Source: Actinomadura barringtoniae (lineage in GTDB: Bacteria; Actinomycetota; Actinomycetes; Streptosporangiales; Streptosporangiaceae). From it: 64,000 nucleotides of DNA. Made by a program: the position numbers and the translations under genes. How positions within the stretch are numbered: the first letter of the stretch is position 1; each line of letters begins with the position of its first letter. The DNA lies in the NCBI RefSeq assembly GCF_017573505.1, contig NZ_JAGEOJ010000006.1, positions 124,001 through 188,000 on the forward strand, in the 5' to 3' direction. Under the pieces are notes generated by a model. That model was given only the letters and a program-made list of their open reading frames with translations, did no database searches and was not told where the DNA came from. Below, in pieces: positions 45,411-62,790 of this stretch.

Positions 45411-45411
45411 C

Positions 45412-47077: not shown

Positions 47078-47113
47078 CCGGCCGGCCGCTGAGTACGGGA
47101 CGCGGCCGGCCGG
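47078..47113 (-). terminator. Stem-loop after the second hsp20 gene
   Basis: CCGGCCGGCCGC (47078-47089) and GCGGCCGGCCGG (47102-47113) form a perfect 12-bp stem with a 12-base loop, 13 bases after the hsp20 stop and before the oxidoreductase start. Confidence 0.6.
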
Positions 47114-47125
47114 AAGCCATTCGGA

Positions 47126-47593
47126 TCACGCCGAGACTTCGATGTGCCTCGGCTTGGCGGTCTCGGCCTTGGGCAGGTTGAGCGTGAGCACGCCGTCCCT
47201 GAGGCGTGCGTCGACCATGTCGGAGTTCACGTCACCGGGCAGGATCGCGCGGAACTCGAAGCGGCCCACGCGGCGGGTCTTGCGGCGGAGCTTGCCCTTC
47301 TCGCGCTCCTTTTCCACGATCTCCCCGCCGACGACCAGCTCGCGGTCGTTGAGCTGGATGTCGATGTCGTCCTTGCTGATCCCGGGCAGCTCGATCTCGA
47401 CGGTGTAGGCGTCCTCCGATTCGGAGATGTCGGCCGGCGGCACCCACGGGAAGTCCTGCCGGGCCTCCTGGCCGGGAGCGCCGAAGGCGAAGTTCAGGAG
47501 CTGTCCCATCTGGTCGTACAGATCCTCGAACTGATGGGCCGGGCTGTAGGCGGCCACCTGCCTCCCGGTCCGGCGGACGGGTTGCTGCGCCAT
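47126..47593 (-). CDS. Small heat shock protein (Hsp20), second copy
   Basis: A 155-residue chaperone of the Hsp18/HSP16.5 type. The alpha-crystallin domain spans about 45-150 (PPADISESEDAYTVEIELPG, ISKDDIDIQLNDRELVVGGE, RVGRFEFRAILPGDVNSD, GVLTLNLPKAE) and ends in the I-E-V tail. It differs strongly from the 29064 copy, so the two probably have different clients or induction. It is divergent from the DUF1931 gene; the 135-bp spacer holds an 11-bp dyad. Confidence 0.95.
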   Translation of the reverse strand: MAQQPVRRTGRQVAAYSPAHQFEDLYDQMGQLLNFAFGAPGQEARQDFPWVPPADISESEDAYTVEIELPGISKDDIDIQLNDRELVVGGEIVEKEREKGKLRRKTRRVGRFEFRAILPGDVNSDMVDARLRDGVLTLNLPKAETAKPRHIEVSA

Positions 47594-48226: not shown

Positions 48227-48994
48227 TCACCATGTCTGGTCGCTGGCGCGGACCAGCATCTGGTTGACGGCGACCCGTCCCTCCCGCGTGACGACGTAGC
48301 CGATGGCGTCCGCGATGTCCTCTGGTCGCAGTGCCTCGATGCCCGCGACCCGGCTGCGGGACAGGTCCCGGACGGTCTCGTTCAGGTGGTCCACCAATTC
48401 GGTGTCGACGGTGCCGGGCTCGACCATGCTGACCCGGACCCGTTCACTGAGCAGCTCCTGGCGAAGCGACTCGGTGAAGGCGCCGAGGCCTGATTTGGTC
48501 ATGCTGTAGACGCTGCTCCCCGGCCGGGCGGCCCGTCCGGCCGCCGCGCCGATGTTCACCAGGTCCGCCACCTGCCGGGGCGAGGTCGACGCCGCGTAGA
48601 TCAGGTGCGGGACGGCCGCATGCGTGATGTGCAGCAGTCCCGCCACGTTGAGCGAGACCATCCGGTCCCACTCCTCGACGGTGGTGTGCAGGGCCGAGCT
48701 GAGCAGCATGATCCCGGCGTTGTTGACGAGGATGTCCAGGCGCCCGAGCCGGTCCAGCGTCTCCTGCACCGCCTCCTCGGCGCGTTCGGGGTCGGTGATG
48801 TCGGCCGGCACCGCGACCGCGTGTCCGCCCGACTCCGCGATGCCACTCGCGACCTGGTCCAGGCGGTCGCGGCGGCGGGCGACCAGGGCGACCGCCGCGC
48901 CCTCCCGGGCCAGGCGGCGCGCGGTCGCGGCGCCTATCCCGCTGCTGGCGCCGGTGACGAGTGCGATAGCTCCGTCCAGCGGCTGATCGGACAT
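48227..48994 (-). CDS. Short-chain dehydrogenase/reductase (first copy)
   Basis: A 255-residue classical SDR. The cofactor motif is TGASSGIG, the structural motif NNAG, and the catalytic Ser-Tyr-x-x-x-Lys appears as VYSMTKSG (Tyr-Ser-Met-Thr-Lys). ARRRDR after strand 2 suggests NADP preference. The ATG at 48994 was chosen over a long unsupported N-terminal extension. A 24-bp dyad element lies 90 bp upstream (49084-49107). It is related to the SDR at 60262, with the shared ending VAVNQMLVRASDQTW versus VAVNEILIRPTDQTR. The substrate is unknown. Confidence 0.92.
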   Translation of the reverse strand: MSDQPLDGAIALVTGASSGIGAATARRLAREGAAVALVARRRDRLDQVASGIAESGGHAVAVPADITDPERAEEAVQETLDRLGRLDILVNNAGIMLLSSALHTTVEEWDRMVSLNVAGLLHITHAAVPHLIYAASTSPRQVADLVNIGAAAGRAARPGSSVYSMTKSGLGAFTESLRQELLSERVRVSMVEPGTVDTELVDHLNETVRDLSRSRVAGIEALRPEDIADAIGYVVTREGRVAVNQMLVRASDQTW

Positions 48995-49083
48995 GACGGC
49001 CTCATTCCCTTCCCGATCACGGAGTCGGATCCATGATCTGCGCCCGGCTACATGATCAGCCTGGCCGGGATCGCCGCCGGACC

Positions 49084-49107
49084 GCACCAGGGTGTCTCCC
49101 TGGTCGA
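49084..49107. promoter_or_regulatory. 24-bp dyad element, site a (before the first SDR)
   Basis: GCACCAGGGT-GTCT-CCCTGGTCGA contains the dyad CCAGGG-N5-CCCTGG. It begins 90 bp upstream of the SDR start at 48994 and is in the 3' flank of the LuxR-type gene. Matching elements lie at 56775, 59149 and 60085. Confidence 0.6.
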
Positions 49108-49122
49108 CACGGGCCAGGGACC

Positions 49123-51894
49123 CTACCGGGGTGTGGAGTCGTCGCGCGGGAGGGCCTCGGGGAGCTGCTTGCGGGAGCTGATCCCGAGCTTGGCGAAGAT
49201 CTTGCGGAGGTGCCACTCGACGGTGCGCGGGCTCAGGAAGAGCCGGGCCCCGACCTCCGGGTTGGACAGGCCGTCCCGCACGAGCAGAGCGATCTGCCGC
49301 TCCTGCGTGGTCAAGTCACCGCTCGCCGGGGTCTCGGTCCTGCGTTTGCGGACGGTCTCGCCGGTGGCGAGGAGCTCGCGCCGGGCGCGCTCGGCGAACG
49401 CGTCCATCCCGATCGAGGTGAACATCTCGTAGGCGGACCGCAGGTGGGCCCGCGCCTCGTCCCGCTGCCGGCCCCGCCGCAGCCACTCGCCGTACAGCAG
49501 GTGAGCGCGCGCCAGTTCGGGGCGCATGATCGTCCGGCCCAGCCTCTCGATCGCCTCGCGGTAGAGGTCGTCCGCGGCGGCGTCGTCGCTCATCAGGGCC
49601 CGGCAGCGTGCCAGGACCCCCTGGGCCCAGTCGGTGTCGCACGGTTCCGCCACGTCCGCCAGGTCTTCGAACGCCTCGTGGGCGGCCGTGTCGTCCCCGG
49701 CGCGCGCCGCCGCCTCGACGAACTCGGGCAGCGCCCATTGGGAGACGAGCGCGTTGGCGCTCTCGATGGTGGCCCTGGCCTCCGACAGCGCCCGCTCGTG
49801 ATTGGCGAGGCCGTTGTGGAGGATCGCGGCCGCCCAGTGCGCCGATGCGACGCCGTTCAGCTGGCCGGCGGCGCCGTCCTCCTCGATCGTGGCGGCGATC
49901 AGGGTCACGGCCTCGGCCGCCCGGCCCTGCATCGCCGTCAGCAGGAGCCTGGTGTGCTGGGTCATGCGCCCGCCCGTCGCGGCGGTGACCGCGTCGACCT
50001 CCGCGATCATCGCGGCCGCGGTGTCGAAATCGCCGGCCAGCGAGGACGTTATCCCTCGCGAGTGGAGATAAATGGGCAGCTCGTACAGGGCGCCGACCGC
50101 GCGTAGCTCCTCGATCACCCTGATGGGCCACTCGGTCGTGGGCCGGTCCTCCCAGACGAGCGCCGGCAGCGCGCCGGCGGCCCAGCTCCACTTCATGAGG
50201 TTCTCCGCCGGAGCCTCAATGAGCGCCCGCGCGCCCCTTCGCAGCGTGGGAAGCGCGGCGCTCCGGCCGTCGGTGACCAGCAGCGCGAACCCCTCGAGCG
50301 CGAGATCGACGGCGGTCGGCTCGCCGTCGGGGGGAGGAAGTCTCCTGATCGCCCGGGAGATCGCCATGAGGCTGTCCCGGTTCGCGGCCCCGTACGACGC
50401 GCTCCCCCAGGCGATGAGGTAGGTCTCCCGCGCCAGGGCCATGTCGAAGGGCTCCAGCCGCTGCGCGGCGGCGAGCAGCATCGGCGGCGCCTGGTTGTTG
50501 AAGCCGGCGGCGAAGGTGATGTGGCTGCGGACGAGCTGGGCCCGCACGCGCTGGAACTCGCTCTGGGCGTCCCGGTCGGCGATCTCGGCGAGGTTCTGTC
50601 CGACGTCGAGGTCGCCCGCGCGAAGGCTCGCGTCGGCGGCCGCCAGGGCGCGCTCGGCCCGCAGCGAGGCGTCCGCGGTCAGCGCCACCGACCGCTGCAG
50701 GAACGCCGCCGCGGTCGCCAGCCCGCCGCGCGCCTGCGCCCGGCCCGCGGACCGCTCCAGTTCCTCGGCGACCGACTCGTCCGGCATGGTCGTCGCGGAC
50801 GCCAGGTGCCAGGCGCGGCGGTCCGGGTCGGCCTTCGGGTCGGTGACCTCCGCCAGCGCCAGATGCACCGCCCGGCGGTCCTTCTGCTTCGCAGATCTGT
50901 ACACGGCGGAGCGAACGAGCGGGTGGCGGAAGACGACGCGCGTGTCGAACACCAATAGCCCGTCCGTCCCGCTCGCCAGGGCCGCCGACGGAGAGATCTC
51001 AAGCCGTTCCGCGGCCTGCCAGACCAGGGACGGATCGCCGGTCGGCTCTGCGGCGGCGACCAGGAGGAGCAACCGGGTCTGCTCGGGCAGGTCCTCGATC
51101 CGGGACAGGAAGCTCTGCTCGATCCGGCCCGGCAGCGTGTCGGCGTGCAGCAGGCCGAATCCGCCCGCCATCTGCGTCATGGTCAGCCCGCGCGGCAGCT
51201 CCAGCAGGGCGAGCGGGTTGCCCTGGGCCTCGGCCACGAAGCGCTCACGGATGTGCTGGTCCAGCCGGACGGGCGTCACCGAGTCCAGCAGGGCGTAGGC
51301 GTCGGCGTCCTTCAGCCCCGCGACCGCCAGCTCCGGTAGCCCGAGCAGGTCCCGGGGCTGCTCCCGGGATCCGAAGACGAGGGCGACCGACTCGGCCAGC
51401 AGCCGGCGGGCGACGAAGCCGAGTACCTGAGCCGAGGCCCGGTCCGTCCACTGCGCGTCGTCGACCACGCACAGCAGAGGGCCCTTCTCGGAGGCCGCCG
51501 ACAGCAGGCTCAATACCGCCAGCCCGACCATGAAGCGCTCCGGCGGGGCGTCCGCGCGCGTCCCGAACACGACCTCGAGCGCATGGCGCTGCGGCCCCGG
51601 CAGATCTCCCAGCCGATCCAGCAGCGGCGCGCACAACTGGTGCAGGGTGGCGAAAGCCAGCTCCATCTCGGACTCGACCCCGCCCGCACGCAGCACCTGC
51701 ATGCCCGTCGCCGCGCCCTCGGCGTACCTCAGCAGCGCCGACTTCCCGACGCCCGGCGCGCCGTGGAGCGCCAGAACGCGGCTCTGTCCGGTGCGGACGG
51801 CCGCGATCGTCCCATCGAGGACGGCGCATTCCGGGCCTCGCCCGAGCAGCTCGGCATTCTCTCCGCGCCAGGCACCGCCTGTCTGTACGCCCAC
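49123..51894 (-). CDS. LuxR-family ATPase regulator, tandem copy 1
   Basis: A 923-residue STAND/LAL regulator starting at a GTG. Walker A is HGAPGVGKSALL, Walker B VVDDAQW; the middle is a helical repeat region with HLASATTMPDESVAEELERS. The C-terminal LuxR HTH is LTTQERQIALLVRDGLSNPE, then LFLSPRTVEWHLRKIFAKL. It is closely related throughout to the next gene (52001), and the recognition helices are identical, so both may bind the same site, possibly the CCAGGG-N5-CCCTGG dyads at four neighbouring promoters. It likely responds to a small ligand; none is known. Confidence 0.92.
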   Translation of the reverse strand: MGVQTGGAWRGENAELLGRGPECAVLDGTIAAVRTGQSRVLALHGAPGVGKSALLRYAEGAATGMQVLRAGGVESEMELAFATLHQLCAPLLDRLGDLPGPQRHALEVVFGTRADAPPERFMVGLAVLSLLSAASEKGPLLCVVDDAQWTDRASAQVLGFVARRLLAESVALVFGSREQPRDLLGLPELAVAGLKDADAYALLDSVTPVRLDQHIRERFVAEAQGNPLALLELPRGLTMTQMAGGFGLLHADTLPGRIEQSFLSRIEDLPEQTRLLLLVAAAEPTGDPSLVWQAAERLEISPSAALASGTDGLLVFDTRVVFRHPLVRSAVYRSAKQKDRRAVHLALAEVTDPKADPDRRAWHLASATTMPDESVAEELERSAGRAQARGGLATAAAFLQRSVALTADASLRAERALAAADASLRAGDLDVGQNLAEIADRDAQSEFQRVRAQLVRSHITFAAGFNNQAPPMLLAAAQRLEPFDMALARETYLIAWGSASYGAANRDSLMAISRAIRRLPPPDGEPTAVDLALEGFALLVTDGRSAALPTLRRGARALIEAPAENLMKWSWAAGALPALVWEDRPTTEWPIRVIEELRAVGALYELPIYLHSRGITSSLAGDFDTAAAMIAEVDAVTAATGGRMTQHTRLLLTAMQGRAAEAVTLIAATIEEDGAAGQLNGVASAHWAAAILHNGLANHERALSEARATIESANALVSQWALPEFVEAAARAGDDTAAHEAFEDLADVAEPCDTDWAQGVLARCRALMSDDAAADDLYREAIERLGRTIMRPELARAHLLYGEWLRRGRQRDEARAHLRSAYEMFTSIGMDAFAERARRELLATGETVRKRRTETPASGDLTTQERQIALLVRDGLSNPEVGARLFLSPRTVEWHLRKIFAKLGISSRKQLPEALPRDDSTPR

Positions 51895-51911
51895 CCGCCA
51901 CCCGCCCCCAT

Positions 51912-51955
51912 TGCAGCTAATTACTATTGTCTGTGCAATTATGTCCGAAAATGTG
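51912..51955 (-). promoter_or_regulatory. AT-rich promoter region of tandem regulator 1
   Basis: The only AT-rich stretch between the two tandem genes. On the minus strand it contains TAATTGCAC and CAATAGTAAT; TAGTAA with a TTCGGA 17 bp upstream is a plausible promoter. It suggests that copy 1 is transcribed separately from copy 2. Confidence 0.35.
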
Positions 51956-52000
51956 GCCGATGCGTGCTCGATGAGGGAGCCGGACCGGGCCGCCGTGCAC

Positions 52001-54778
52001 TCACCTAGGCGTCGAGGCGTGCTCGCTCGGCGGCAGGACGTCGCGCAGCTGCCTGCGCGAGGTGATCGACAGCTTGGCGAAGATCTTGCGCAGGTGCCAC
52101 TCGACCGTGCGCGGGCTGAGGAAGAGCCGGGTCCCGATCTCCGGGTTGGACAGGCCCTCCCGTACGAGCAGCGCGATCTGCCGTTCCTGCGGCGTCAGCT
52201 CCTCGCCGGACGCGGCCTCGACCGCCTGTTTGCGAACGCTCTCGCCCGTGGCCAGCAGCTCGCGGTGGGCCCGCTCGGCGAACGCTTCCATCCCGATCGC
52301 CTTGAACATCTCGTAGGCCGTGCGCAGCTGGTCACGCGCCTCGACCCGCTGCCTGCTCCGGCGCAGCCACTCGCCGTACAGCAGATGGGCACGCGCGAGC
52401 TCCGGGCGCAGCTCCGTGCGGCCCAGCCGCTCGATCGCCTCGCGATGGAGCTCCGCCGCGGCCGCCCCGTCGCTCAGCAGCGCCCGGGAGCGGGCGAGCA
52501 CGCCGAGCGCCCAGTCCGTGCCGCACGGCCGCGCCGCCTCGGCCAGGTCCTCGATCGCCGCGCGGGCGACATCGTCCTCACCGGCGCGCACCGCCGCCTC
52601 GACCAGTTCGGGGAGCGCCCAGACCGACACCCAGAGCTCGGCCATCCGGGTGCAGACCTGGGCCGCCGACAGCGCCTGCCGGTAGCGGCCGAGGCCGTTG
52701 TAGAGGACCGCGGCCGCCCACTGGGCGACCGTGACTCCCATCAGCTGACCGCCGGCGCCGGCCTCCTCGATCGTGGCGGCGATCAGCGCCTCGGCCTCGG
52801 CCTCGCGGCCGCGCAGGGCGTTCAGCCGGAGCTCGACGTGCGCGGCGATGGGCACCCCGGTCGCAGCGGAGACGTCCTCGATCTCCGCGATGATCGCGGC
52901 GGTGGCGTCGAAGTCCCCAGTCCAGGCGATGGCTATCCCGAGCGAGGTCAGGCAGAACGGGAGCTCGGTCAGGGCGCCGGCGGCGCGCACCCCCTCGACG
53001 ACCCGGCCGACGAGGACGCGCATCGCCTGGTCGTCCCAGACGGCGGCGCTCACCGCGTTGGCGACCCAGCCCCATTTCAGGACCTCGCGCACCGGCAGGT
53101 CCGTGAGCGCGGCCAGCGCTTGCCGCAGCACCGGGACTGCGGCGGCCCGGCTCTCTGTGACGAGCAGTGCGTAGCCCTTGAGTACGAGGTCAAGGGTCTG
53201 CGGGGTTCCCGCCGGGGCCGGAAGCGCTTTCATCGCCGCCGAGATCGCCTTGAGGCTGTCGGAATGTGCGGCGAGCAGCGCCGCGGTGCCCCACGCGATC
53301 AGGTAGGTCTCGCGCGCGAGGTCCATGTCGAACGGCTCGAGCCGCTGCGCGGCCGTCAGCAGCAGCGGCGGCGCCTCCTGGTTGAGGCCGGCCGCGAAGG
53401 TGATCCGGCTCCGGACCAGGTGCGCCCGGACGCGCTGGAACTCGTCCTGGGCGTTGCGGTCGGCGATGTCGGCGAACCGGCGCGCGGCTTCGAGGTCGCC
53501 GGCCTGAAGGGTGGCGTCGGCGGCGGCGGCCGCGCGCTCGGCGCGCCGCGACGAGTCGACGGTCAGCGCGACGCATCGCTGCAGGAACGCCGCTGCGGCG
53601 GCCAGCCCGCCACGCGCCTGCGCCCGGCCCGCGGACCGCTCGAGTTCCGCGGCGACGGACTCGTCCGGTGCGGCCGCCGCGGACGCCAGGTGCCAGGCCC
53701 GGCGGTCCGGGTCGATCTTCGGGTCGGTCACCTCCGCCAGCGCCAGGTGCACCTCCCGGAGGTCCTCCTTCGGCGCCGACCGGTACACGGCCGACCGCAC
53801 CAGCGGATGACGGAACGTCACGCGCGCTTCCAGCGACAGCCATTCCCGCGTGCCGTCGGCGAGCGCCTCCTCCGGCGTCACACCGAGCCGACCCGCGGCG
53901 CCCCAGACCAGAGTGGGGTCGCCGACCGGTTCGGCCGCGGCGATCAGCAGGAGCAGCCGGGACTGTTCGGGCAGGCCGCCGATCCGGGACAGGAAGCTCT
54001 CCTCGATCCGGCCCGGCAGCGTGTCCGAGCGCAGGAGACCGAACCCGCCCGCCATCTGGGTCACGGTCAGCCCGCGCGGCAACTCCAGCAGGGCGAGCGG
54101 ATTGCCCCTGGTCTCGGTCACGATCCGATTGCGGACGTGCTGGTCGAGACGGCCGTAGGTGACCGAGTCCAGCAGGGTGTGGGCGTCGGTGTCCCGGAGG
54201 CCGGTGATCTCTAGTTCGGGGAGCCCGAGCAGGCCCTGGGAGCGCTCCCGTGCGCCGAAGAGAAGAACGACCGACTCCGCCAGCAGCCGCCGGGCCACGA
54301 AGCTGATCACCTGCAAGGACGCCTGGTCCACCCACTGAGCGTCATCGACCACGCAGAGCAGCGGGCGGTCCTGCGAGGCGTCCGACAGGAGGCTGAGCAC
54401 CGCCAGCCCGACCAGGAATCGCTCGGGTGGCGTCCCGGCCCGGATCCCGAACACCGTCTCAAGGGCGGCCCGCTGCGGCGCGGGAAGGTGCGGCAGCCGG
54501 TCCAGCAGGGGCGCGCACAACTGGTGCAGCGTGGCGAACGGCAGCTCCATCTCCGACTCGACGCCGACCGCGCGCAGCACGTGCATGCCCGTCGCCGCGT
54601 TCTCCGCGTACCCGAGCAGCGCCGACTTCCCGACGCCCGGCGCGCCGTGCACCACGAGCACGCGGCTCTCACCCGTATCGACGGCCGCGAGCACCTGATC
54701 GACGACGGCGCGCTCCGGTCCCCGCCCGAGCAAGGCGACGTTCTCCCCGTGGCCCGCGCCGTGCCTGCGTTGTTCCAC
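52001..54778 (-). CDS. LuxR-family ATPase regulator, tandem copy 2
   Basis: A 925-residue paralogue of the 49123 gene, starting at a GTG with GGTAAGG upstream. Walker A is HGAPGVGKSALL and Walker B CVVDDAQWVD; the HTH is LTPQERQIALLVREGLSNPE and LFLSPRTVEWHLRKIFAKL. Large parts align without gaps to copy 1, including ESEMELPFATLHQLCAPLLD, and divergence is greatest in the presumed ligand-sensing repeats. The tandem pair most likely arose by duplication and may read different signals while acting on the same promoters. Confidence 0.92.
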   Translation of the reverse strand: MEQRRHGAGHGENVALLGRGPERAVVDQVLAAVDTGESRVLVVHGAPGVGKSALLGYAENAATGMHVLRAVGVESEMELPFATLHQLCAPLLDRLPHLPAPQRAALETVFGIRAGTPPERFLVGLAVLSLLSDASQDRPLLCVVDDAQWVDQASLQVISFVARRLLAESVVLLFGARERSQGLLGLPELEITGLRDTDAHTLLDSVTYGRLDQHVRNRIVTETRGNPLALLELPRGLTVTQMAGGFGLLRSDTLPGRIEESFLSRIGGLPEQSRLLLLIAAAEPVGDPTLVWGAAGRLGVTPEEALADGTREWLSLEARVTFRHPLVRSAVYRSAPKEDLREVHLALAEVTDPKIDPDRRAWHLASAAAAPDESVAAELERSAGRAQARGGLAAAAAFLQRCVALTVDSSRRAERAAAAADATLQAGDLEAARRFADIADRNAQDEFQRVRAHLVRSRITFAAGLNQEAPPLLLTAAQRLEPFDMDLARETYLIAWGTAALLAAHSDSLKAISAAMKALPAPAGTPQTLDLVLKGYALLVTESRAAAVPVLRQALAALTDLPVREVLKWGWVANAVSAAVWDDQAMRVLVGRVVEGVRAAGALTELPFCLTSLGIAIAWTGDFDATAAIIAEIEDVSAATGVPIAAHVELRLNALRGREAEAEALIAATIEEAGAGGQLMGVTVAQWAAAVLYNGLGRYRQALSAAQVCTRMAELWVSVWALPELVEAAVRAGEDDVARAAIEDLAEAARPCGTDWALGVLARSRALLSDGAAAAELHREAIERLGRTELRPELARAHLLYGEWLRRSRQRVEARDQLRTAYEMFKAIGMEAFAERAHRELLATGESVRKQAVEAASGEELTPQERQIALLVREGLSNPEIGTRLFLSPRTVEWHLRKIFAKLSITSRRQLRDVLPPSEHASTPR

Positions 54779-54937
54779 CCTTACCGCCTCCGTCGCACGC
54801 CCGGACTGCGGTCGACCTTGTGTCGGGACGGCCCCATCGTGCCCCGAATGATCGCCCGCTCCGAATCCATGATCCCAGAGTCGGCGGCCTCCGTAACAGC
54901 CCTGGTGGAAGCCTTTTAGCGGCGCGTTTGTGACAGC

Positions 54938-54970
54938 GGCCCGCCCGGCGGAGAAACCGCCGGGCGGGCC
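54938..54970 (-). terminator. Strong stem-loop after the hydrolase pair
   Basis: GGCCCGCCCGGCGG (54938-54951) and CCGCCGGGCGGGCC (54957-54970) form a perfect 14-bp stem with an AGAAA loop, 30 bp after the stop of the minus-strand hydrolase. Confidence 0.75.
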
Positions 54971-54999
54971 GGTGAGGAGGGACGATGAGAGGGCTTGGT

Positions 55000-55725
55000 T
55001 CAGCCCTCCCGGCCGCCGACTGCGTCGAGGATGGAGGCGGCCACCGCCTCCGGCTGGGAGGCGGCGATCGCGTGCGAGGCGCCGGCGATCTCGCGGGTCC
55101 CCCGCGCAGAGGCCCGTTCGGCCATGTATCGCTGCAGCTCGGCCGGGATGTTGAGGTCCTGATCGCCGAAGACGAACCAGGACGGCTTGGTGCGCCAGGC
55201 CGCCTCGTTCGGCTCCAGCCCGTCGGTCAGCGCCTTCTCCGTCACCGGGCGCTGGGTGGCCGCCATCAGGGCGGCCTCACCGGCCTCCAGATCGGCGCAG
55301 AACTGGGCGTGGTACCTGTCGTCGGCGATCCGGAACTCGTTGCCGCCGGAAGTGACCGGGTAGGCGGCCAGGGCTCCCCCCAGGGTGCTGCCCTCGAACT
55401 TGCCGGACAGCTGCAGGGCGCTCTCGCCGGTCTCGGGGGCGAAGGCGGCGACGTAGACCAGGGACTGGACGGCGGGGTCGCCGGCCGCCGCCTGGGTGAT
55501 CACCATGCCGCCGTAGGAGTGGCCGACGAGGACGACCGGCTGGCCGATCCCGCTGATCACGTCGCGCAGGTAGGCGGCGTCGCCCGCCACGCTGCGCAGC
55601 GGATTGGCCACGGCGACGGCCTCCAGGCCGCGGCCGTGCAGGCGCTCGATGACGCGGTTCCAGCTCGCCGATTCGGCGAACGCTCCGTGGACCAGGACGA
55701 TGACGGGCTGCTCTGTGGTGTTCAA
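55000..55725 (-). CDS. Alpha/beta hydrolase of the salicylate esterase/hydroxynitrile lyase-like group
   Basis: A 241-residue alpha/beta hydrolase beginning with VIVLVHGAFAESASWN. The nucleophile elbow is GHSYGGM, the acid probably Asp in FGDQDLN and the base His in GASHAIAASQP. The start is a TTG (55725) that overlaps the upstream esterase stop as TTGA and has AAAGGAAG just before it; no ATG or GTG fits. It belongs to a family of small esterases and lactonases often annotated as alpha/beta fold hydrolases. It is coupled to the HSL-type esterase; both may handle the same ester or lactone. Confidence 0.88.
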   Translation of the reverse strand: MNTTEQPVIVLVHGAFAESASWNRVIERLHGRGLEAVAVANPLRSVAGDAAYLRDVISGIGQPVVLVGHSYGGMVITQAAAGDPAVQSLVYVAAFAPETGESALQLSGKFEGSTLGGALAAYPVTSGGNEFRIADDRYHAQFCADLEAGEAALMAATQRPVTEKALTDGLEPNEAAWRTKPSWFVFGDQDLNIPAELQRYMAERASARGTREIAGASHAIAASQPEAVAASILDAVGGREG

Positions 55726-56687
55726 CGGTCTTCCTTTCGGGTGTGCAGGGCGAAGGTGAGGGCGGTGATGGCCTGGGCAGTGGCGGCTCGCGCGGCGCGG
55801 GTGCCGCTGACGGGGTTGAGCATCATGAAGTCGTGGAGCGTGCCGTTGTAGCGGACGCTGGTGGTGGGCACTCCGGCCTCGGTGAGGCGGCGGGCGTAGG
55901 CCTCGCCCTCGTCGCGCAGCACGTCGTTCTCGTCCACGAGGACGAGGGCGGGCGGCAACCCGGCCAGGTCGTCGAGGGTGGCGCGCAGCGGTGAGGCGGT
56001 GATCTCGGCGCGCTCGGCGGGATCGGTGGTGTAGGCGTCCCAGAACCAGGCCATGGCCTTGGCGGTCAGGTAGGGGCCGTCGGCGAACTCGCGATAGCTG
56101 CCCGTGTCCTGGGCGGCGTCGGTGACGGGGTAGTAGAGCGACTGGTGGACGAAGATCACATCGCCGCGCCGCTTGGCCAGGATGGTCAGCGCGGCGGTCA
56201 TGTTCCCGCCGACCGAGTCCCCGGCGACCGCCAGCCGGGAGGCGTCCAGCCCCTCGTCCGCGCCGTGCCGGGTGATCCACTGCGCGGCGGCGTAGGCCTG
56301 CTCGATCGCCACCGGATAGCGAGCCTCGGGCGACCGGTCGTACTCGACGAAGGCGACCGCCGCGCCAGTGCCGGCCGCCAGCTCGCGTACCAACCGGTCG
56401 TGGGTCCCGGCGTTGCCGAGCACCCAGCCGCCGCCGTGCACGTACAGCACGACCGGCAGGGTCTCACCGGCCGTCCCAGCGGGCCTGACGATGCGGACCC
56501 GGACGTCGCCGACCCCGGCCGGCACGGTGATCCACTTCTCGTCGACCTCAGGCTTGCCGATCGGGGCGGACTGGAGGTCGTCCAGGACCTTGCGGGCCCC
56601 CTCGGTGCCCAGCTCGTACAGGAACGGGGGCTTGGAGGTGGCGTCGGCGAGCTCCTGCGCCGCCGGCTCTAGAACGTGCTCACTCAT
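55722..56687 (-). CDS. HSL-family esterase/lipase (alpha/beta hydrolase)
   Basis: A 321-residue hormone-sensitive-lipase-type esterase. The oxyanion motif HGGGW, nucleophile elbow GDSVGG, acid in DENDVLRDEG and base His in GTLHDFM are all present. The ATG at 56687 has GGAAAGGAAG upstream and is preferred to an ATG 12 codons earlier. The 24-bp dyad element (56775-56798) begins 88 bp upstream. The stop overlaps the TTG start of the next hydrolase. Likely cytoplasmic, acting on short-chain esters. Confidence 0.92.
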   Translation of the reverse strand: MSEHVLEPAAQELADATSKPPFLYELGTEGARKVLDDLQSAPIGKPEVDEKWITVPAGVGDVRVRIVRPAGTAGETLPVVLYVHGGGWVLGNAGTHDRLVRELAAGTGAAVAFVEYDRSPEARYPVAIEQAYAAAQWITRHGADEGLDASRLAVAGDSVGGNMTAALTILAKRRGDVIFVHQSLYYPVTDAAQDTGSYREFADGPYLTAKAMAWFWDAYTTDPAERAEITASPLRATLDDLAGLPPALVLVDENDVLRDEGEAYARRLTEAGVPTTSVRYNGTLHDFMMLNPVSGTRAARAATAQAITALTFALHTRKEDR

Positions 56688-56774
56688 CGGTGCTTCCTTT
56701 CCGAAACTGTTCTTGATCGTCATTGGCCTCTCCGGGCCGTTGTCCATCACGGTCGCCCGACCGGGGATCCCGGG

Positions 56775-56798
56775 GCACCCGGGTGGGACCCTGGGCGA
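56775..56798. promoter_or_regulatory. 24-bp dyad element, site b (before the esterase pair)
   Basis: GCACCCGGGT-GGGA-CCCTGGGCGA, 88 bp upstream of the esterase start at 56687. It differs from site a at five of 24 positions, and with the next eight bases (GTCCCTGGGG) it matches the site c region at 59151-59182 in 27 of 32 positions. Confidence 0.6.
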
Positions 56799-56854
56799 GT
56801 CCCTGGGGCGGTGGAAATCCCCTGGTGGCCGTACCGCGGCGCCGTCACCGGGGG

Positions 56855-58216
56855 TCAGTGGAGGTCGTCCAGTGCCGCTTCCACGGCCCGGTGGAAGGTC
56901 GGATAGGTGTAGATCATGTGCTTGAGGCGGTCGGTGGGCGTCTCGGTGTGGACGGCGACGTTCAGCCCGTACAGCACCTCGCCTCCCGTGGGACCGGCCG
57001 AGGTGGCGCCGACCAGGACACCGCGCCCGGCGTCCTCGACGAGCTTGACGAACCCCTCGTTGCCGGGTCCGTGCACCAGGCCGCGCGAGGACGAGGCGAT
57101 CGGCACCAGGCCGGTGCGCACGCGCATGCCCCGATCGCGGGCCTGCTGCTCGGTCAGCCCCACGGCCCCGATCTCGGGGTCGGTGAAGGTGACCCGGGGC
57201 AGCGCCCGGTAGTCGGCGTCCGGGCCGGGCTGACCGAGGATGTCGCGGACGGCGATCCGTGCCTCGTACATCGAGACGTGGGTGAAGGCGCCGCGGCCGG
57301 TTATGTCGCCGATCGCCCATAGCCCTTCCCCCGCTCGCATCTGGCCGTCGGTGTGCACGGCCGGCGCGGTCGGGTCGAGGCCCACCGTGTCGACCGCCAG
57401 CGCGCCAAGGTCCGTCCGGCGGCCCGTCGCGACAAGTAGGCGTTCGGCGCGAAGCGGTTCCAGACCGCCTTCGAGCAGGGCTTCGAAGGCGGCGCCGTCG
57501 TGCTCGATCTGGACGGCTCGGGCGCCGGTGCGCACGCTGACGCCATCGGCCCGCAGCGCCTTCGCCGCCAGCTCCCCGGCCTCCGGTTCCTCCTGGGCGA
57601 GCAGCCGGTCCCCGCCCTCCAGGACGGTGACCGCGCATCCGAAGCGGGCGAAGACCTGGGCGAGTTCCACACCGATCGCGCCGCCGCCGAGCACCAGCAT
57701 CGAGGCGGGCATCTCCTCGGTCGCGATGGCGTCCCGGTTCGTCCAGTAGGGCGTCTCCGCCAGGCCCGGCACCGGGGGGATGCGTGGGCCGGACCCGGTG
57801 GCCACGACGACACCCCGCCCGGCCCGGAACGTGCGGTCGCCCACGATCACCCGGCCCGGGCCCGCGAGCCGCCCCTTCCCTCGGACCAGTCGCACACCCT
57901 TGGCCGCCAGGCGGTCGGCGGCCAGCTGGTCGTCCCAACCGCCGGTGGCCTCCCTGCGGACGCGTTCGGCGACTCGGCTCCAGTCGGGCACCGCCTTCGC
58001 CTCACCGGCCAGGTCGGGGACGCGGCCGGCCTCGGCGAGCACGTTCCCGGCGCGGATCATCATCTTGCTGGGGATGCATCCCCAGTACGGGCACTCGCCT
58101 CCGACGAGCTCCGCCTCCACCCCGACCACGTCCAGTCCCGCCTCGGCCAGCGCGCCCGCGGCGAACTCGCCGCCCGGCCCTAGCCCCAGGACCACCACAT
58201 CGGCCTGTTCCGTCAT
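56855..58216 (-). CDS. FAD-dependent pyridine nucleotide-disulfide oxidoreductase
   Basis: A 453-residue class I flavoprotein disulfide reductase. FAD motif VLGLGPGG, redox pair Cys42 and Cys47 in GGECPYWGCIPSK, NAD(P) motif VLGGGAIGVELAQ and the second FAD motif GLWAIGDITGRG are present. The C-terminal His-Glu pair of lipoamide dehydrogenase (HAHPTxxE) is altered to YTYPTFHRAVE, so the substrate may not be a dithiol like lipoamide. The ATG at 58216 overlaps the STAS stop as ATGA. Relatives are annotated as mercuric reductase or dihydrolipoamide dehydrogenase-like. The partner could be a low-molecular-weight thiol or WhiB-linked redox sensing (inference). Confidence 0.9.
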   Translation of the reverse strand: MTEQADVVVLGLGPGGEFAAGALAEAGLDVVGVEAELVGGECPYWGCIPSKMMIRAGNVLAEAGRVPDLAGEAKAVPDWSRVAERVRREATGGWDDQLAADRLAAKGVRLVRGKGRLAGPGRVIVGDRTFRAGRGVVVATGSGPRIPPVPGLAETPYWTNRDAIATEEMPASMLVLGGGAIGVELAQVFARFGCAVTVLEGGDRLLAQEEPEAGELAAKALRADGVSVRTGARAVQIEHDGAAFEALLEGGLEPLRAERLLVATGRRTDLGALAVDTVGLDPTAPAVHTDGQMRAGEGLWAIGDITGRGAFTHVSMYEARIAVRDILGQPGPDADYRALPRVTFTDPEIGAVGLTEQQARDRGMRVRTGLVPIASSSRGLVHGPGNEGFVKLVEDAGRGVLVGATSAGPTGGEVLYGLNVAVHTETPTDRLKHMIYTYPTFHRAVEAALDDLH

Positions 58217-58713
58217 GACGTTCTCATCTCCTTGGGTGCCGTTCCGGCCCTGCATTTCCTGATGGCCTCGACCGGCATCCCGTCCGGCAGCGGGGCCCGT
58301 CGCGGGGCCCGTGACGGGCCCGACGCGGCCAGGGCGGCGGCGAGCGCCTGCCGCACCGTGGTGTGGACGGGGATGTGGTCGCCCAGCCGCAGCACGTCGA
58401 AGACGCGGGTGACCAGCGGGGACGGGGCGGCGACCCGTACGGTCGTACCGTGTTGTTCAGCCGCGAGGTGGGCGTCCACCAGGATCTTGACGCCGCTGGA
58501 GTCCAGGAAGGTCACCTCGGTCAGGTCGAGGACGAGGTGCCGTCCGCGGTCGGGCCGGGCGTGCCGCTCGCAGTAGGCGCGCAGTTGCGGCGCGGTGGCG
58601 ATGTCGATCTCACCGGCGATGGCGATCAGCGTGACGCGGTTCAGCAGGACACGGTGATCGATCCGCAACTCGCCCGGCCGCGGGGCCTCTTCCTCGACGA
58701 GTAGACGGGTCAT
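58213..58713 (-). CDS. STAS-domain anti-sigma factor antagonist
   Basis: A 166-residue protein. The STAS domain at about 15-120 has VLDLTEVTFLDSSGVKIL with the phosphoacceptor Ser, followed by a basic tail (PSRAPRRAPLPDG). It starts in the whiB stop and ends in the start of the flavoprotein gene, both as ATGA overlaps, so the three form one tightly coupled unit. It likely releases an alternative sigma factor when dephosphorylated. It differs from the 28004 STAS protein in its flanking regions. Confidence 0.9.
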   Translation of the reverse strand: MTRLLVEEEAPRPGELRIDHRVLLNRVTLIAIAGEIDIATAPQLRAYCERHARPDRGRHLVLDLTEVTFLDSSGVKILVDAHLAAEQHGTTVRVAAPSPLVTRVFDVLRLGDHIPVHTTVRQALAAALAASGPSRAPRRAPLPDGMPVEAIRKCRAGTAPKEMRTS

Positions 58714-59012
58714 GCGGCATCGGCCTTCCGGGCGCGGGAGTGAGCGGGATCGGTCGCGGGGCCGGGGTTTCTCCGGGCCGCCCGGAGGCGGCGGCGCTCG
58801 CCAGGGGTGGTGCCGGCCCAGATACCGTCCGGCTCGCCGGTGGCCAGGGCCCATTCCAGGCAGCGGCTCGCGGCGGGGCAGGCCGCGCAGACCTGGCGGA
58901 TCGCCTCGATCTGCGTCATGTAGACGGTCTCCCCGGCCACCGGGAAGAACAGGTCGGGATCGAGCGAGCGGCACGACGCCGCCTCATCCCAGTCCAAGGT
59001 CGTCTTGGTCAT
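58710..59012 (-). CDS. WhiB-family iron-sulfur transcription factor
   Basis: A 100-residue WhiB-like protein. Four cluster-binding Cys residues lie at 14, 42, 45 and 51 (C-x27-C-x2-C-x5-C), followed by the beta-turn GIWAGTT (63-69) and a basic tail (GERRRLRAARR) for DNA contact. The ATG at 59012 starts at MTKTTLDWDE; an ATG nine codons upstream (59039) is possible. A dyad element (59149) lies 110-137 bp upstream. WhiB proteins bind the main sigma factor and sense oxygen or NO through a 4Fe-4S cluster. Confidence 0.93.
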   Translation of the reverse strand: MTKTTLDWDEAASCRSLDPDLFFPVAGETVYMTQIEAIRQVCAACPAASRCLEWALATGEPDGIWAGTTPGERRRLRAARRNPGPATDPAHSRARKADAA

Positions 59013-59148
59013 GGCCGTACCCGCGCGGGCAAGAGCCATCGTCCGGCGCGGTCTGTGCCGGTGCCGTCGTCGGTCGTCACTGTCCCTCCAGTCATTGCTT
59101 CGTTCTCGGGGCGACATCAACAAAGGTCGTCTGACCAGGTATGGGGTG

Positions 59149-59172
59149 AGACCCGGGTGAGTCACTGGGCGG
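59149..59172. promoter_or_regulatory. 24-bp dyad element, site c (before whiB-STAS-reductase)
   Basis: AGACCCGGGT-GAGT-CACTGGGCGG, the most divergent copy, but its extended form matches site b in 27 of 32 positions. It begins 110 bp before the upstream whiB start (59039) or 137 bp before 59012. Confidence 0.5.
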
Positions 59173-59295
59173 GTCCCTGGGCACGTGGCGCTCCCCGGGA
59201 GCGCGGGTGCTCCGATGAGAACCAGGCACAAGATCCGCCGACGAGCGTCACAGGCGCGCGCTGTGCGCAGGCGGCTCCAGTACGCCGCCTCCGGA

Positions 59296-59997
59296 TCACG
59301 CCACGCGGTCGCCATGCAGGGCGGCCGACCTCATCGCGCCTCTGCCGCGGCTTTTGAACGGGCCGGCGGCGTTAGCGGCGAAGTGGTCCTCAAGGGCGGC
59401 GGTGTCCCCTGTCTGGGCGGCGCTGAGGAAGATCTCCACGAGGCGGCGGTGCTCGGCCCTGTCGATCGGCCCACGTCGCGCCGTGGTCAGATGCTTGCGG
59501 GCGCGGGTCACGAGCTGGCGGGTGTTGACCGGGCTGACCTGCAGGACCTCCGCGATCTGTGCGTACGGATAGTCGAACGCCTCGCGCAGGATGTAGGCGG
59601 CCCGTTCGGTCGGGGTGAGCCGCTGGAGCAACAGCAGGAGCGCGAGTTCGAGCGCCTCGCCCCGTTCGGCTTCGAGGGCGGGGTCGGTGCCGGTGCCGAC
59701 GCGCTCGGGCAGCCAGGGGCCGATGGAGGTCTCGCGCTGTGATCGGGCGGATTTGGAGATGTTGATGGCCAGCCGCGTGGTGATCAATGCCAGGAAGGCC
59801 GTCGGGTTCGCGATGGCCGGGCGGTCGGCGCCCTGCCAGCGCAACCAGGTGTCCTGGACGACGTCCTCGGCTTCGGCGACGCTGCCGAGCACCCGATAGG
59901 CGATGCCGAACAGGCGCGGGCGCGTCCGCGTGAAGACGGAGGTGGCCTGTTCGAGCGTCCCGTCCAGCCGCTCGGGTTCCGGCATGTGCTTGGTCAT
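59296..59997 (-). CDS. ECF sigma factor (SigJ/ECF41-like) with truncated C-terminus
   Basis: A 233-residue sigma-70-family protein. Region 2 is RPRLFGIAYRVLGSVAEAED then VVQDTWLRW; region 4 is LTPTERAAYILREAFDYPYA and VSPVNTRQLVTRARKHL. ECF41-type factors continue with a SnoaL/NTF2-like domain of about 100 residues, but here only its first helix (VEIFLSAAQTGDTAALEDHF) remains before unrelated sequence and a stop. The end RSAALHGDRVA faintly recalls a later piece of that domain, so an internal deletion is likely. In this group the extension controls activity, so the factor may be deregulated. The ATG at 59997 is preferred; 59985 is an alternative. Confidence 0.85.
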   Translation of the reverse strand: MTKHMPEPERLDGTLEQATSVFTRTRPRLFGIAYRVLGSVAEAEDVVQDTWLRWQGADRPAIANPTAFLALITTRLAINISKSARSQRETSIGPWLPERVGTGTDPALEAERGEALELALLLLLQRLTPTERAAYILREAFDYPYAQIAEVLQVSPVNTRQLVTRARKHLTTARRGPIDRAEHRRLVEIFLSAAQTGDTAALEDHFAANAAGPFKSRGRGAMRSAALHGDRVA

Positions 59998-60084
59998 GGG
60001 CGGTTGTCCCTTCCGTCCTGCTCCGCGGGTCCCGATCGGCGTCTCGCCGATAGCGATCACGCTCGCCGGGCCAGGCAGGGAAAG

Positions 60085-60108
60085 GCACCAGGGTCGCTCC
60101 CTGGCCGA
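60085..60108. promoter_or_regulatory. 24-bp dyad element, site d (before the ECF sigma gene)
   Basis: GCACCAGGGT-CGCT-CCCTGGCCGA differs from site a at three of 24 positions and begins exactly 88 bp upstream of the ECF start at 59997, the same distance as site b. Confidence 0.6.
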
Positions 60109-60180: not shown

Positions 60181-60223
60181 CACGGGCCGAGTCCCTGGTG
60201 CGGCACCAGGGACTCGGCCCGTG
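60181..60223. terminator. Perfect 20-bp stem-loop containing two GCACCAGGG half-sites
   Basis: CACGGGCCGAGTCCCTGGTG (60181-60200) and its exact complement (60204-60223) with a CGG loop. It follows the minus-strand SDR gene (stop 60262) as a terminator would. It also carries GCACCAGGG on both strands, the half-site of the dyad elements, so it may double as a protein-binding site. Confidence 0.6.
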
Positions 60224-60261: not shown

Positions 60262-60999
60262 CTAACGCGTCTGATCGGTCGGGCGGATGAGGATCTCGTT
60301 GACCGCGACATGCTCGGGCTGAGTGACCGCATACACGACGGCGTCGGCGATGTCCCCGGGCTGCAGGGTGCGCATGGACGCGGCCATGTCCCCCGCCGCC
60401 GCCCGCATCGTGGGATCGGTGATGTGCCCGGCCAGTTCGGTCGCGACGAAGCCGGGTTCGATGATCACCACGCGTACGCCCTGGGCGGTGACCTCCTGCC
60501 GTAGCGCCTCGGAGAAGGCGTTGACGCCGAACTTCGTCGCGGCGTAGACCCCGTTGTAGGCCGATGCGATCCGGCCCGATGTCGAGGAGACCTGCACGAC
60601 GATGCCCTTGGCCTCCAGCAGATGCGGCAGCGCCGCATGGACCGTGTGCATCGACCCGAGCAGGTTGGTCTCGACCATGCGCGTCCATTCCGTGGTGTCC
60701 GCACCGGCGATCGGGCCGCTGAGCATCACCCCGGCGTTGTTCACCAGGACGTCCAGGGCGCCGAAGCGCTCGACGGTCGCGGCGACCGCGGCTCGCACCG
60801 ACTCCTGATCGGTCACGTCCAGATCGAGGGTCAGGACCTCTCCGGGCGCCTTGCGGGCCAGGGACTCCAACCGGTCGCCGCGCCGGGCCCCGGCCGCGAC
60901 GCGGGTCCCCTCCGCCGAGAGGGCCAGCACAGTGGCCTCGCCGATGCCCGACGACGCTCCCGTGACGAGGACGACCTTGCCGTTCAATATGTCGTTCAT
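60262..60999 (-). CDS. Short-chain dehydrogenase/reductase (second copy)
   Basis: A 245-residue classical SDR with TGASSGIG, NNAG and the catalytic Ser (VSSTSG) plus Tyr-Ala-Ala-Thr-Lys (VYAATKFG). The Arg-rich turn after strand 2 (GARRGDR) suggests NADP preference. It resembles the 48227 SDR in length and in the C-terminal VAVNEILIRPTDQ. CTGGGA-GG-TCCCAG, a small palindrome, lies 13 bp before the start (61012-61025). Two strong stem-loops follow it. The substrate is unknown. Confidence 0.93.
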   Translation of the reverse strand: MNDILNGKVVLVTGASSGIGEATVLALSAEGTRVAAGARRGDRLESLARKAPGEVLTLDLDVTDQESVRAAVAATVERFGALDVLVNNAGVMLSGPIAGADTTEWTRMVETNLLGSMHTVHAALPHLLEAKGIVVQVSSTSGRIASAYNGVYAATKFGVNAFSEALRQEVTAQGVRVVIIEPGFVATELAGHITDPTMRAAAGDMAASMRTLQPGDIADAVVYAVTQPEHVAVNEILIRPTDQTR

Positions 61000-61059: not shown

Positions 61060-62790
61060 CTATTCGACGAGCTTTCCGTGGGTGGAGACCTCGCGCATGA
61101 GGGCGGCGATCTCGGCGGGGATCGGCGGCAGGGGCTCACGTTCGATCTTGCCGGGCCCCGACCACACCAGGTTGACCCGCAAGGAGGTGTCGGTCTCCGG
61201 GTGATCGGAGCGGTTGTGGCAGCCGCGCGTCTCGCGGCGTTCGAGCGCCGCCTCCAGCGTGGCGCGGGCGGCCAGGACGGTGGACTTCAGGTCGAACGCG
61301 TGCGCGAGGTCCTGGTAGCCAGCCAGGTCGGGGTGGACGCCCAGGTCGCCCATCCGAGCCTCGACCGCCGCCAGCTCGACCAGTCCCTGGCGCAGCCCCG
61401 CCTCATCGCGGACGACGCCGCCGTGCTCGGTCATGATGTCCCGGACCGCGCGCTGCAGTGCCCGGACGTTTTCCGGGCCGTCGCACGCAAGCAGGTCGTC
61501 CACCTCCTGGCGGGCCTCGGCGAGCGCGGACCCGCCGCGCCGCTGGGTGTCGCGGGACGCCGCATAGGCGGCCGCGGCCGCCCCTGTGATCCGGCCGTAC
61601 ACCAGCAGCTCGATGAGGGAGTTGCCGCCGAGCCGGTTCGCTCCGTGCAGGCCGCTGGCGGCCTCCCCGATCGCATACAGGCCGTCGACGTCGGTGCCGT
61701 GGTCCTCTGGCCGGACCCACACCCCGCCCATCGAGTAGTGCGCGGTCGGGGCGACCTCGATGGGGTCCTTGGTGATGTCGAGCATCTGCAGCTCCAGCAG
61801 CGTCTGGTAGACGCGCGGCAACCGGGTCATGATCGTGGCCCGGGGCAGGTGCGAGACGTCCAGCAGGACGCCGCCGGCCGGGGTGCCACGCCCCTCCTTG
61901 ATCTCGGTGTAGGCGGCCAGCGCGACCCGGTCACGGGTGGACAGCTCCATCCGCTCGGGGTCGTACCGCGCCATGAACCGCTCCCCGAGAGCGTTCAGCA
62001 GCCGTCCGCCCTCGCCCCGGGCCGCCTCCGACACCAGCGTCCCCGCCGCGTTCTCGGGCTCGATGAGGCCGGACGGATGGAACTGCACGAGCTCGGGGTC
62101 GCGGATGCGGGCGCCCGCGAGGACGGCCAGGCGGAACGAGTCGCCGGTGTTCTCGTCGCGGCGGGACGAGGTGCGGCGCCAGATCCGGGTGTGTCCACCG
62201 GTGGCCAGGATGACCGCGTCGGCGTGGATGACGTAGCGGGCGCCGTCGTTCAGATCGAACCCGTAGGCACCGAAGATGACGTTGTCTCGGACCAGCAGGC
62301 GGGTGATGCAGACGGTGTCGAGGATCGGCACCTTCAGCTGGGCCGCCCGATTGACGAGGGTGCGCTGGATCTCCAGCCCGGTGTAGTCGCCGCTGAAGGC
62401 GGTGCGCCGCCAGGTGTGGGCACCGAAGAAGCGCTGCGAGATCCGCCCGTCGGCCTCGCGTGCGAACGGCATCCCGTAGTGGACGAGGTCGTCGATGCCG
62501 CGTGCCGCGTTCTCGGTCACGATGCGCACGATGCGCGGGTCGGCCAGCAGGTAGCTCTCCTGCAGGGTGTCGGCGGCGTGCTGCTGCCAGGTGTCCTGCG
62601 GGTCCATCGTCGCCAGTGCCGCGTTGATGCCGCCGGCGGCGAGCGTGGTGTGCGCGTCGCCCTTCGGCCGCTTGCCGATCGCAAGGACGCCCATACCTCG
62701 TTCGGCGAGCTCGATCGCGGCACGCAACCCCGCTCCGCCGGTACCGATCACCAGCACCGGCGTCGCGATCCGCCGCTCGGAATCAGGCAC
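61060..62790 (-). CDS. Stand-alone SdhA/FrdA-like FAD-binding flavoprotein
   Basis: A 576-residue flavoprotein from the GTG at 62790, which overlaps the upstream gene's stop by eight bases; an ATG at 62865 would overlap by 83 bases and adds only a Thr/Ser-rich leader. FAD motif VLVIGTGGAGLRAAIELAE, the AHTTLAAGG segment with the His that covalently binds FAD in SdhA/FrdA, active-site stretch ARGEGGRLLN and TAHYSMGGVW, and GLYAIGEAASGLHGANRLGG are all seen. A short C-terminal helical domain is present. No sdhB/sdhC partner is adjacent. L-aspartate oxidase is less likely because of the conserved His. Confidence 0.85.
   Translation of the reverse strand: MPDSERRIATPVLVIGTGGAGLRAAIELAERGMGVLAIGKRPKGDAHTTLAAGGINAALATMDPQDTWQQHAADTLQESYLLADPRIVRIVTENAARGIDDLVHYGMPFAREADGRISQRFFGAHTWRRTAFSGDYTGLEIQRTLVNRAAQLKVPILDTVCITRLLVRDNVIFGAYGFDLNDGARYVIHADAVILATGGHTRIWRRTSSRRDENTGDSFRLAVLAGARIRDPELVQFHPSGLIEPENAAGTLVSEAARGEGGRLLNALGERFMARYDPERMELSTRDRVALAAYTEIKEGRGTPAGGVLLDVSHLPRATIMTRLPRVYQTLLELQMLDITKDPIEVAPTAHYSMGGVWVRPEDHGTDVDGLYAIGEAASGLHGANRLGGNSLIELLVYGRITGAAAAAYAASRDTQRRGGSALAEARQEVDDLLACDGPENVRALQRAVRDIMTEHGGVVRDEAGLRQGLVELAAVEARMGDLGVHPDLAGYQDLAHAFDLKSTVLAARATLEAALERRETRGCHNRSDHPETDTSLRVNLVWSGPGKIEREPLPPIPAEIAALMREVSTHGKLVE

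Follow-up and report, generated by a model that had tools for sequence, protein, structure and literature searches.

Four short inverted repeats lie within 11 kb around two tandem regulator genes of an Actinomadura genome, and the question raised by this locus is which protein reads them and with what effect. The window analyzed here is the 64,000-nucleotide stretch C55:124001-188000 of an 11.7-Mb, 75-contig Actinomadura genome (G000). A first-pass annotation had proposed that elements at 49084, 56775, 59149 and 60085 share one 24-bp pattern and form a regulon under the two regulators, which are large ATP-binding regulators of the LuxR family (LALs) and are called here LAL1 and LAL2. Our sequence comparisons support a shared-operator regulon with LALs as the likely binders, since such sites recur beside paralogous LALs with the recognition helix RTVEWHLR and family-wide. 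It is very probable, in our view, that LALs of this helix type (here LAL1 and LAL2) use the four elements as the operators of one regulon, where they would bind as a dimer and activate transcription. The predicted operators are the following:

49087..49103, minus strand: operator dyad CCAGGGAGACACCCTGG before SDR1, a short-chain dehydrogenase (SDR) gene; exact 24-mer match, kept in 8 promoters
56778..56794, minus strand: operator dyad CCAGGGTCCCACCCGGG before the esterase pair; exact 24-mer match, orthologue comparison
59152..59168, minus strand: operator dyad CCAGTGACTCACCCGGG before whiB-STAS-reductase; core match, kept in G027 and G103
60088..60104, minus strand: operator dyad CCAGGGAGCGACCCTGG before the extracytoplasmic function (ECF) sigma gene; exact 24-mer match, orthologue comparison

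Three of the four elements match the proposed 24-mer GCACCMGGGTNNNNCCCTGGNCGA exactly (49084, 56775 and 60085, all on the plus strand; the motif reads CGNCCAGGGNNNNACCCKGGTGC in the sense of the genes), while the one at 59149 departs from it by 4 mismatches and fits exactly the core CCAGKGNNNNACMCKGGT. In the window, the 24-mer gave 3 matches at up to 3 mismatches versus 0.18 expected, and none of 100 shuffles reached at least 3. Throughout the genome there are 3 exact matches (all in the window), none at 1 mismatch and 6 at 2. The core has 6 exact matches in the whole genome, four of them being the window promoters; the other two are L192, inside a coding-like frame, and L197 at C55:253617, which scores 14.2 with the weight matrix described below and is not followed by a -10 element. 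A Poisson estimate from L192 and L197 gives 6e-10 for four core matches in any 11.1-kb stretch, which is approximate, since the sites were known when the core was selected. At up to 1 mismatch, the core was found 43 times in the whole genome versus 34 for the reversed pattern, an excess so small that only near-perfect sites are informative. These are concentrated at the window locus (3 of 3 exact 24-mers, 4 of 6 exact cores) instead of being scattered over the genome.

An ungapped column scan of 17 promoters showed that, beyond the dyad and the T adjoining it, the two strongest downstream columns are an A and a T four positions apart. We measured this spacing in 31 promoters of the Actinomadura genome and its relatives, belonging to five target classes (8 SDR1, 9 esterase, 5 WhiB, 3 ECF and 6 NmrA-like) and including the 16 sites used to build the weight matrix. 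The ECF promoter of G103, with a degenerate dyad, and four sites of G001 (scores 9.0-14.1) were dropped before the count, and the later hits G050:C533, G050:C110 and G050:C177 and the genomes of the family-wide scan also stand outside it. ANNNT starts 23-24 bp after the 17-bp dyad in 30 of the 31 promoters, versus a mean of 0.8 and a maximum of 5 at the other offsets (0-61 minus 21-25). The resulting candidate -10 hexamers read GANNNT in 27 of 30 cases, 11 of which are GACAGT. Upstream, 18 of the 31 promoters have a CCAGGGA box (at least 6 of 7 letters) whose start lies 12 bp ahead of the dyad, namely 9/9 esterase, 5/5 WhiB, 4/6 NmrA-like, 0/8 SDR1 and 0/3 ECF promoters; in its place, an inverted half-site is present 16-17 bp upstream of the dyad in 7 of the 8 SDR1 promoters. 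In the window, these elements are located as follows:

49058..49063, minus strand: candidate -10 CAGGCT, SDR1 promoter, from dyad spacing
56749..56754, minus strand: candidate -10 GACCGT, esterase promoter, from dyad spacing
56800..56806, minus strand: upstream half-box CCAGGGA, esterase promoter, 12 bp before the dyad, from promoter comparison
59123..59128, minus strand: candidate -10 GACCTT, whiB promoter, from dyad spacing
59174..59180, minus strand: upstream half-box CCAGGGA, whiB promoter, 12 bp before the dyad, from promoter comparison
60059..60064, minus strand: candidate -10 GAGCGT, ECF promoter, from dyad spacing

Two other candidates for the downstream element were discarded. TRTCGGC was dropped as a -10 given that the start codon of the L100 esterase sits on it and that ANNNT, nearer to the dyad, is far more constant. 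The 22-bp downstream box GRCGACAGTGGTCGRTATCGGC, taken from L166, matches many esterase, ECF, NmrA-like and WhiB promoters at offset 19-20, and it exceeded shuffles in none of the 8 SDR1 promoters; it was kept merely as a description of the -10/start region. It is thus the spacing between dyad and -10 that is constant, and not, as had been claimed, the distance to the start codon. The distances of 90, 88 and 88 bp given for the window are right, as are the 110-137 bp for whiB (ATG at 59039 or 59012), and in orthologues, whose start codons were taken from tblastn ends, they vary: 90-144 bp for SDR1 (8 promoters), 88 and 102 for the esterase, and 88, 133 and 220 for ECF.

The -10 also allowed us to discard a wider regulon in this genome. 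From 57 near-matches fetched (27 from the 24-mer search and 30 from the core search, the window's four sites included), eight showed the -10, i.e. the four window sites and 4 of the 53 others, and the best of the other near-matches (L005, score 19.5) does not have it. Weaker further targets may exist in the genome.

Regarding the mode of action, the start codon lies 35 bp after the dyad and 6-7 nt after the hexamer in the L100 esterase gene and in the Nonomuraea L137 SDR gene. Reading both as leaderless places +1 there and the center of the dyad near -44. An activator that touches sigma at -35 (class II) occupies a position such as -44. We found no good -35 hexamer at these promoters, and the -10 departs from TANNNT at its first base, which together suggest that an activator is needed. 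In the mechanism we propose, a LAL dimer would occupy the dyad CCAGKGNNNNACMCKGG, whose center is about 44 bp upstream of the transcription start and which immediately precedes the -35 position; several promoters have a further half-site 12 bp upstream of the dyad. The bound LAL would bring RNA polymerase to a promoter whose GANNNT -10 is weak. The predicted output is SDR1, the esterase pair, whiB-STAS-disulphide reductase and an ECF41-like sigma factor. One could argue that a dyad just upstream of -35 suits a repressor, with the LAL abutting the -35 and blocking RNA polymerase until an inducer releases it; SCO6993, also a LAL, is described in the text available to us as repressing actII-ORF4 and redD (PMC9628970). 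We consider repression unlikely here, given that the poor -35 and the off-consensus -10 point to activator dependence, and that the LALs in the literature excerpts at hand are mostly activators.

We looked for LAL2 in 65 Actinomadura genomes and examined the orthologous locus in nine of them; the named LAL2 orthologues, at 85-91% identity, belong to Actinomadura strains. Eight promoters, with diverged flanks, retain the SDR1 site (the window, G027, G041, G015, G103, G050, G002 and G025). G027 also retains the esterase, whiB/STAS and ECF sites; the whiB/STAS site is further kept in G103 and the ECF site in G015, and a degenerate ECF site is present in G103. The element at 59149 had been rated the weakest of the four, which is right for its mismatches to the 24-mer and does not hold for its conservation, as it is well preserved in both relatives that keep it. 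Across the nine loci, dyads of the form CCNGGG-Nn-CCCNGG have n=5 in 15 cases, versus 9 for the next commonest spacing. In G001, two back-to-back dyads precede a glyoxalase/VOC gene and a muconolactone-isomerase gene.

The candidate binders are encoded by two neighboring genes:

49123..51894, minus strand: LAL1, AAA_16 ATPase with C-terminal GerE helix-turn-helix (HTH), recognition helix SPRTVEWHLRKIF; likely binder (Pfam, motif)
52001..54778, minus strand: LAL2, architecture and helix as LAL1; likely binder (Pfam, motif)

By their size, ATPase and HTH, both proteins are LALs in sequence terms. They have 923 and 925 aa, within the LAL range of about 900-1000 aa, and both gave AAA_16 hits with the Walker A GAPGVGKS at residue 45; the strict Walker B pattern hhhhD[DE] had no match, and DDAQWVDQ is present. 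The PF00196 LuxR/GerE HTH covers residues 861-911 of LAL1 and 860-912 of LAL2, and the recognition helices are identical, as the first-pass annotation had stated. In G041, LAL1 is reduced to a C-terminal HTH piece (L088 7932-8150) beside an intact LAL2, with the SDR1 site kept.

To compare helix type and operator, the weight matrix built from 16 sites was run on LAL loci outside the training set. The best site score within about 660 bp of the gene ranged from 27.4 to -1.0 for 13 LALs with the RTVEWHLR helix (Trp helix) and was at most 10.0 for 34 other LALs, one of them of unknown helix (Mann-Whitney p 5.7e-6, with rows related by descent). The sites near Trp-helix LALs precede an esterase (L097, L098, L099, L100 and L113), a WhiB (L114 and L115) or an NmrA-like gene (L109 and L112). 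A further weak site (score 9.1) with a -10 was seen in G049 (L101 8046), between a LAL and a fumarate-reductase-like flavoprotein that is homologous to window 61060-62865 and a possible further target family.

Genome-wide, 17 of the 65 Actinomadura genomes match the helix as a DNA pattern, within a LAL2-unlike protein in G023 and a broken LAL in G008. The site pattern SNCCAGKGNNNNACMCKGGT gave 45 hits in 27 of the 65, versus 17 for its reversed control. The co-occurrence test used 30 loci of these 45 hits: sites with a -10 were present in 12 genomes, 12/12 with the helix, and in 0/48 helix-less genomes (Fisher p 1.5e-9); the hit of G049, one of the 12, looks like chance by eye. In a tree of 62 LALs that leaves out the HTH columns, 4 changes are required to explain the Trp helix, and a site scoring at least 12 lies within 660 bp in 21/34 Trp-helix versus 0/28 other LALs, training loci included.

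At the scale of the family, we searched 341 genomes for the composite of operator and -10, CCAGKGNNNNACMCKGGTN{21,22}GANNNT, and obtained 35 matches in 24 genomes, with 0 for the reversed pattern. Thirty-one of them precede SDR1 (8), NmrA-like (7), esterase (5), SnoaL-like (4), ECF (3), whiB/STAS (2) or LAL (2) genes; the remaining four (G111, G123, G136 and G223) have no known neighbor in their 1.7-3 kb loci. Outside the genus, an RTVEWHLR-helix LAL is found no more than 3 kb from the SDR1 sites of G170, G174 and G244 and from the SnoaL-like sites of G262, G276 and G344; around the composite site of G270, 13 kb of sequence showed no LAL. Among 22 cross-genus loci scanned, composite promoters appeared in one, that of Nonomuraea NEAU-A123 (L137), where two of them flank the LAL2 orthologue, before an SDR gene and before a DJ-1/PfpI gene. 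In G262 (L296 6579) and G276 (L297 5644), composite operators precede a second LAL gene located 2-3 kb from a Trp-helix LAL, which may point to control of one LAL by another; the second LAL of G276 has the helix SPRTVSSHLYRVF. On balance we favor the idea that RTVEWHLR marks a LAL specificity class across the Actinomadura-Nonomuraea family, in which one operator/promoter grammar would serve several paralogous LALs per cell, the target families (esterase, SDR, WhiB, NmrA-like, SnoaL-like, ECF41-like sigma and LAL) would be reshuffled between species, and NmrA-like genes would switch between control by LAL plus ECF41 and by ECF41 alone.

Several observations weigh against assigning the sites to these LALs. 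Neither the LAL1 nor the LAL2 promoter carries a site (matrix score 2.9 near LAL2), and the LAL2 locus of G102 has none. The conservation in relatives asked for by the first-pass annotation holds in part: sites are kept beside matching genes, and some genes are kept without a site, namely the esterase genes of G015 and G103, both of which closely follow another gene, and the whiB genes of G041 and G102. In G056, where LAL and esterase are reduced to fragments, there is a dyad with neither -10 nor helix. Trp-helix LALs are related, so the association of helix and site is partly shared descent, and the LAL tree offers just 4 independent pairs, with which a sign test cannot decide. Finally, in Streptomyces (L136 and L146), Lentzea (L140 and L142) and M. 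aquaticum (L143) the helix is present with no composite site in the stretches read, so that the helix-operator rule is not universal.

The Streptomyces orthologues, RTVEWHLR-helix LALs without nearby sites, would also suit a dyad recognized by some other regulator (the ECF sigma, WhiB or an unlinked factor), with the LALs as mere neighbors, and WhiB and the ECF sigma, being among the targets, could be autoregulated. We find this very improbable: sites track the LAL helix type across genomes, the stretches read in G050, G002 and G025 hold only LAL, site and SDR1, without ECF or WhiB, and the dyad lies upstream of a conserved -10 instead of replacing it. As for chance G+C-rich palindromes or RNA hairpins, the bare dyad CCAGGGN5CCCTGG is just mildly enriched in the window (17 versus 9.4 expected at up to 2 mismatches), but the absence of reversed composites, the conservation of dyads amid diverged flanks and their position upstream of the predicted transcript leave this explanation a negligible probability.

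The genes that the LALs would control are listed below; regulators and predicted targets are all encoded on the minus strand:

48227..48994, minus strand: SDR1, short-chain dehydrogenase, predicted target (Pfam)
55000..55725, minus strand: Abhydrolase_6, probably in the esterase operon (Pfam; operon inferred from gene overlap)
55722..56687, minus strand: esterase, Abhydrolase_3, predicted target (Pfam, NCBIfam)
56855..58216, minus strand: pyridine nucleotide-disulphide oxidoreductase, probably in the operon of the STAS gene (Pfam; operon inferred from overlap)
58213..58713, minus strand: STAS protein, probably in the whiB operon (Pfam; operon inferred from overlap with whiB)
58710..59012, minus strand: WhiB, 100 aa, predicted target (Pfam, run from start 59012)
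59296..59997, minus strand: ECF sigma, SigJ/ECF41-like, with shortened C-terminal part, predicted target (Pfam, NCBIfam)

The targets appear to be small-molecule enzymes, either hydrolases or NAD(P)-dependent, plus redox and sigma regulators. A tentative reading, somewhat less likely than its alternatives taken together, is that the inducer is a small ester, lactone or carbonyl compound, sensed by the ATPase domain of the LAL, which would turn on removal of the compound together with a redox response.

The sigma factor would extend the regulon by one step. With 233 aa, it scored 236.5 bits for SigX4 (matched to position 204 of 281) and 216 bits for SigJ, below the NCBIfam cut-offs of 323.25 and 271, respectively. 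Its SnoaL-like C-terminal part stops about 60 residues beyond region 4, short of the full extension of ECF41. The ECF41 consensus is given as TGTCACA-n16-CGTC before COE genes in the accessible text of PMC3426412. A search of the window gave no ECF41 promoter. Of the NmrA-like copies of the genome, the best two (73% at C55:190288 and 71% at C74:132450) have TGTCACA-N16 with TGTC or GGTC; the first, 2.3 kb beyond the window and about 6 kb from the sigma gene, shows TGTCACA-N16-TGTC, with a -10 that differs by one letter from ECF41. Neither copy has an operator upstream, and the NmrA-like genes of this genome were discarded as direct LAL targets. In five NmrA-like genes with a LAL operator (G033, G048, G025, G002 and G050), we also found [TC]GTCAC[AG]-N16-TGTC just upstream; a loose ECF41-type pattern had 11 other matches in seven NmrA loci, so that position and the tighter letters matter. 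The window sigma factor probably reads the NmrA-like gene beyond the window. The simplest interpretation would be a cascade from LAL to ECF41-like sigma to that gene here, and LAL plus sigma acting on one NmrA-like gene elsewhere.

Some features lie next to these genes. At 59080, a GTG that has a good ribosome site begins a frame of 23 codons (VTTDDGTG...), whose end overlaps the whiB ATG at 59012 out of frame; the corresponding GTG frame of G027 and G103 continues directly into the STAS protein, and the body of WhiB is absent there. A 21-bp perfect hairpin at window 60181-60223 (-51.3 kcal/mol with flanks, z -6.95) lies between the SDR at 60262-60999 and the ECF promoter. Both of its arms hold GCACCAGGGACTC, operator-like half-sites, and it is kept in G027; it may be a terminator, a decoy or both. 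A stress block adjoins the regulon at window 37539-47593, with ClpB-like AAA, DnaJ, GrpE, Hsp70, a PrsW protease, YflT, a cNMP-binding/pyridine-nucleotide reductase fusion and Hsp20.

In order to contextualize these results, we compared the regulon with known systems. The window sigma factor resembles ECF41 sigmas and their COE genes in being SigJ/SigX4-like and in the ECF41-type promoters of NmrA-like genes, and differs from them in its shortened C-terminus and in its own promoter, which is of the LAL type. LAL1 and LAL2 share with MalT, the LAL prototype, the N-terminal ATPase, the C-terminal LuxR HTH, a size of about 900 aa, several half-sites per promoter and a proposed activator position close to -35. 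The MalT boxes, quoted as GGA[TG]GA in the part of PMC9628970 available to us, are absent from the four window promoters, where we find instead an inverted dyad with N5 and a direct half-box. PAS-LuxR regulators such as PimM also combine a LuxR HTH with a G+C-rich dyad at the -35 region, CTVGGGAWWTCCCBAG (PMC9774167, in part), whereas LAL1 and LAL2 show no PAS domain by Pfam and the spacer here is N5 instead of N4; that operator gave 0 matches in the window and 0 in the 31 promoters. TpdR, a LAL of Rhodococcus jostii, activates small-molecule catabolism from a repeat at -51 to -37 that overlaps the -35, according to the sections of PMC6099782 at hand, and differs in its 15-nt direct repeats and its targets. 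LAL regulators govern antibiotics and catabolism in actinomycetes, and few of their operators are mapped; the family is called poorly studied in the accessible part of PMC3282765, and no consensus could be predicted for SCO6993 according to that of PMC9628970. In the portions available of the open-licence literature, including PMC10100954, PMC11784345 and PMC6022936, we found neither this operator nor a link of LALs to WhiB/STAS/ECF described. Taken together, the helix type, the 17-bp operator, the fixed -10 spacing and the target list make a helix-to-operator code directly testable. Set beside these systems, the regulon is a new, unusually well delimited case of the LAL-activator kind, one that connects LAL control with WhiB, STAS and an ECF sigma factor.

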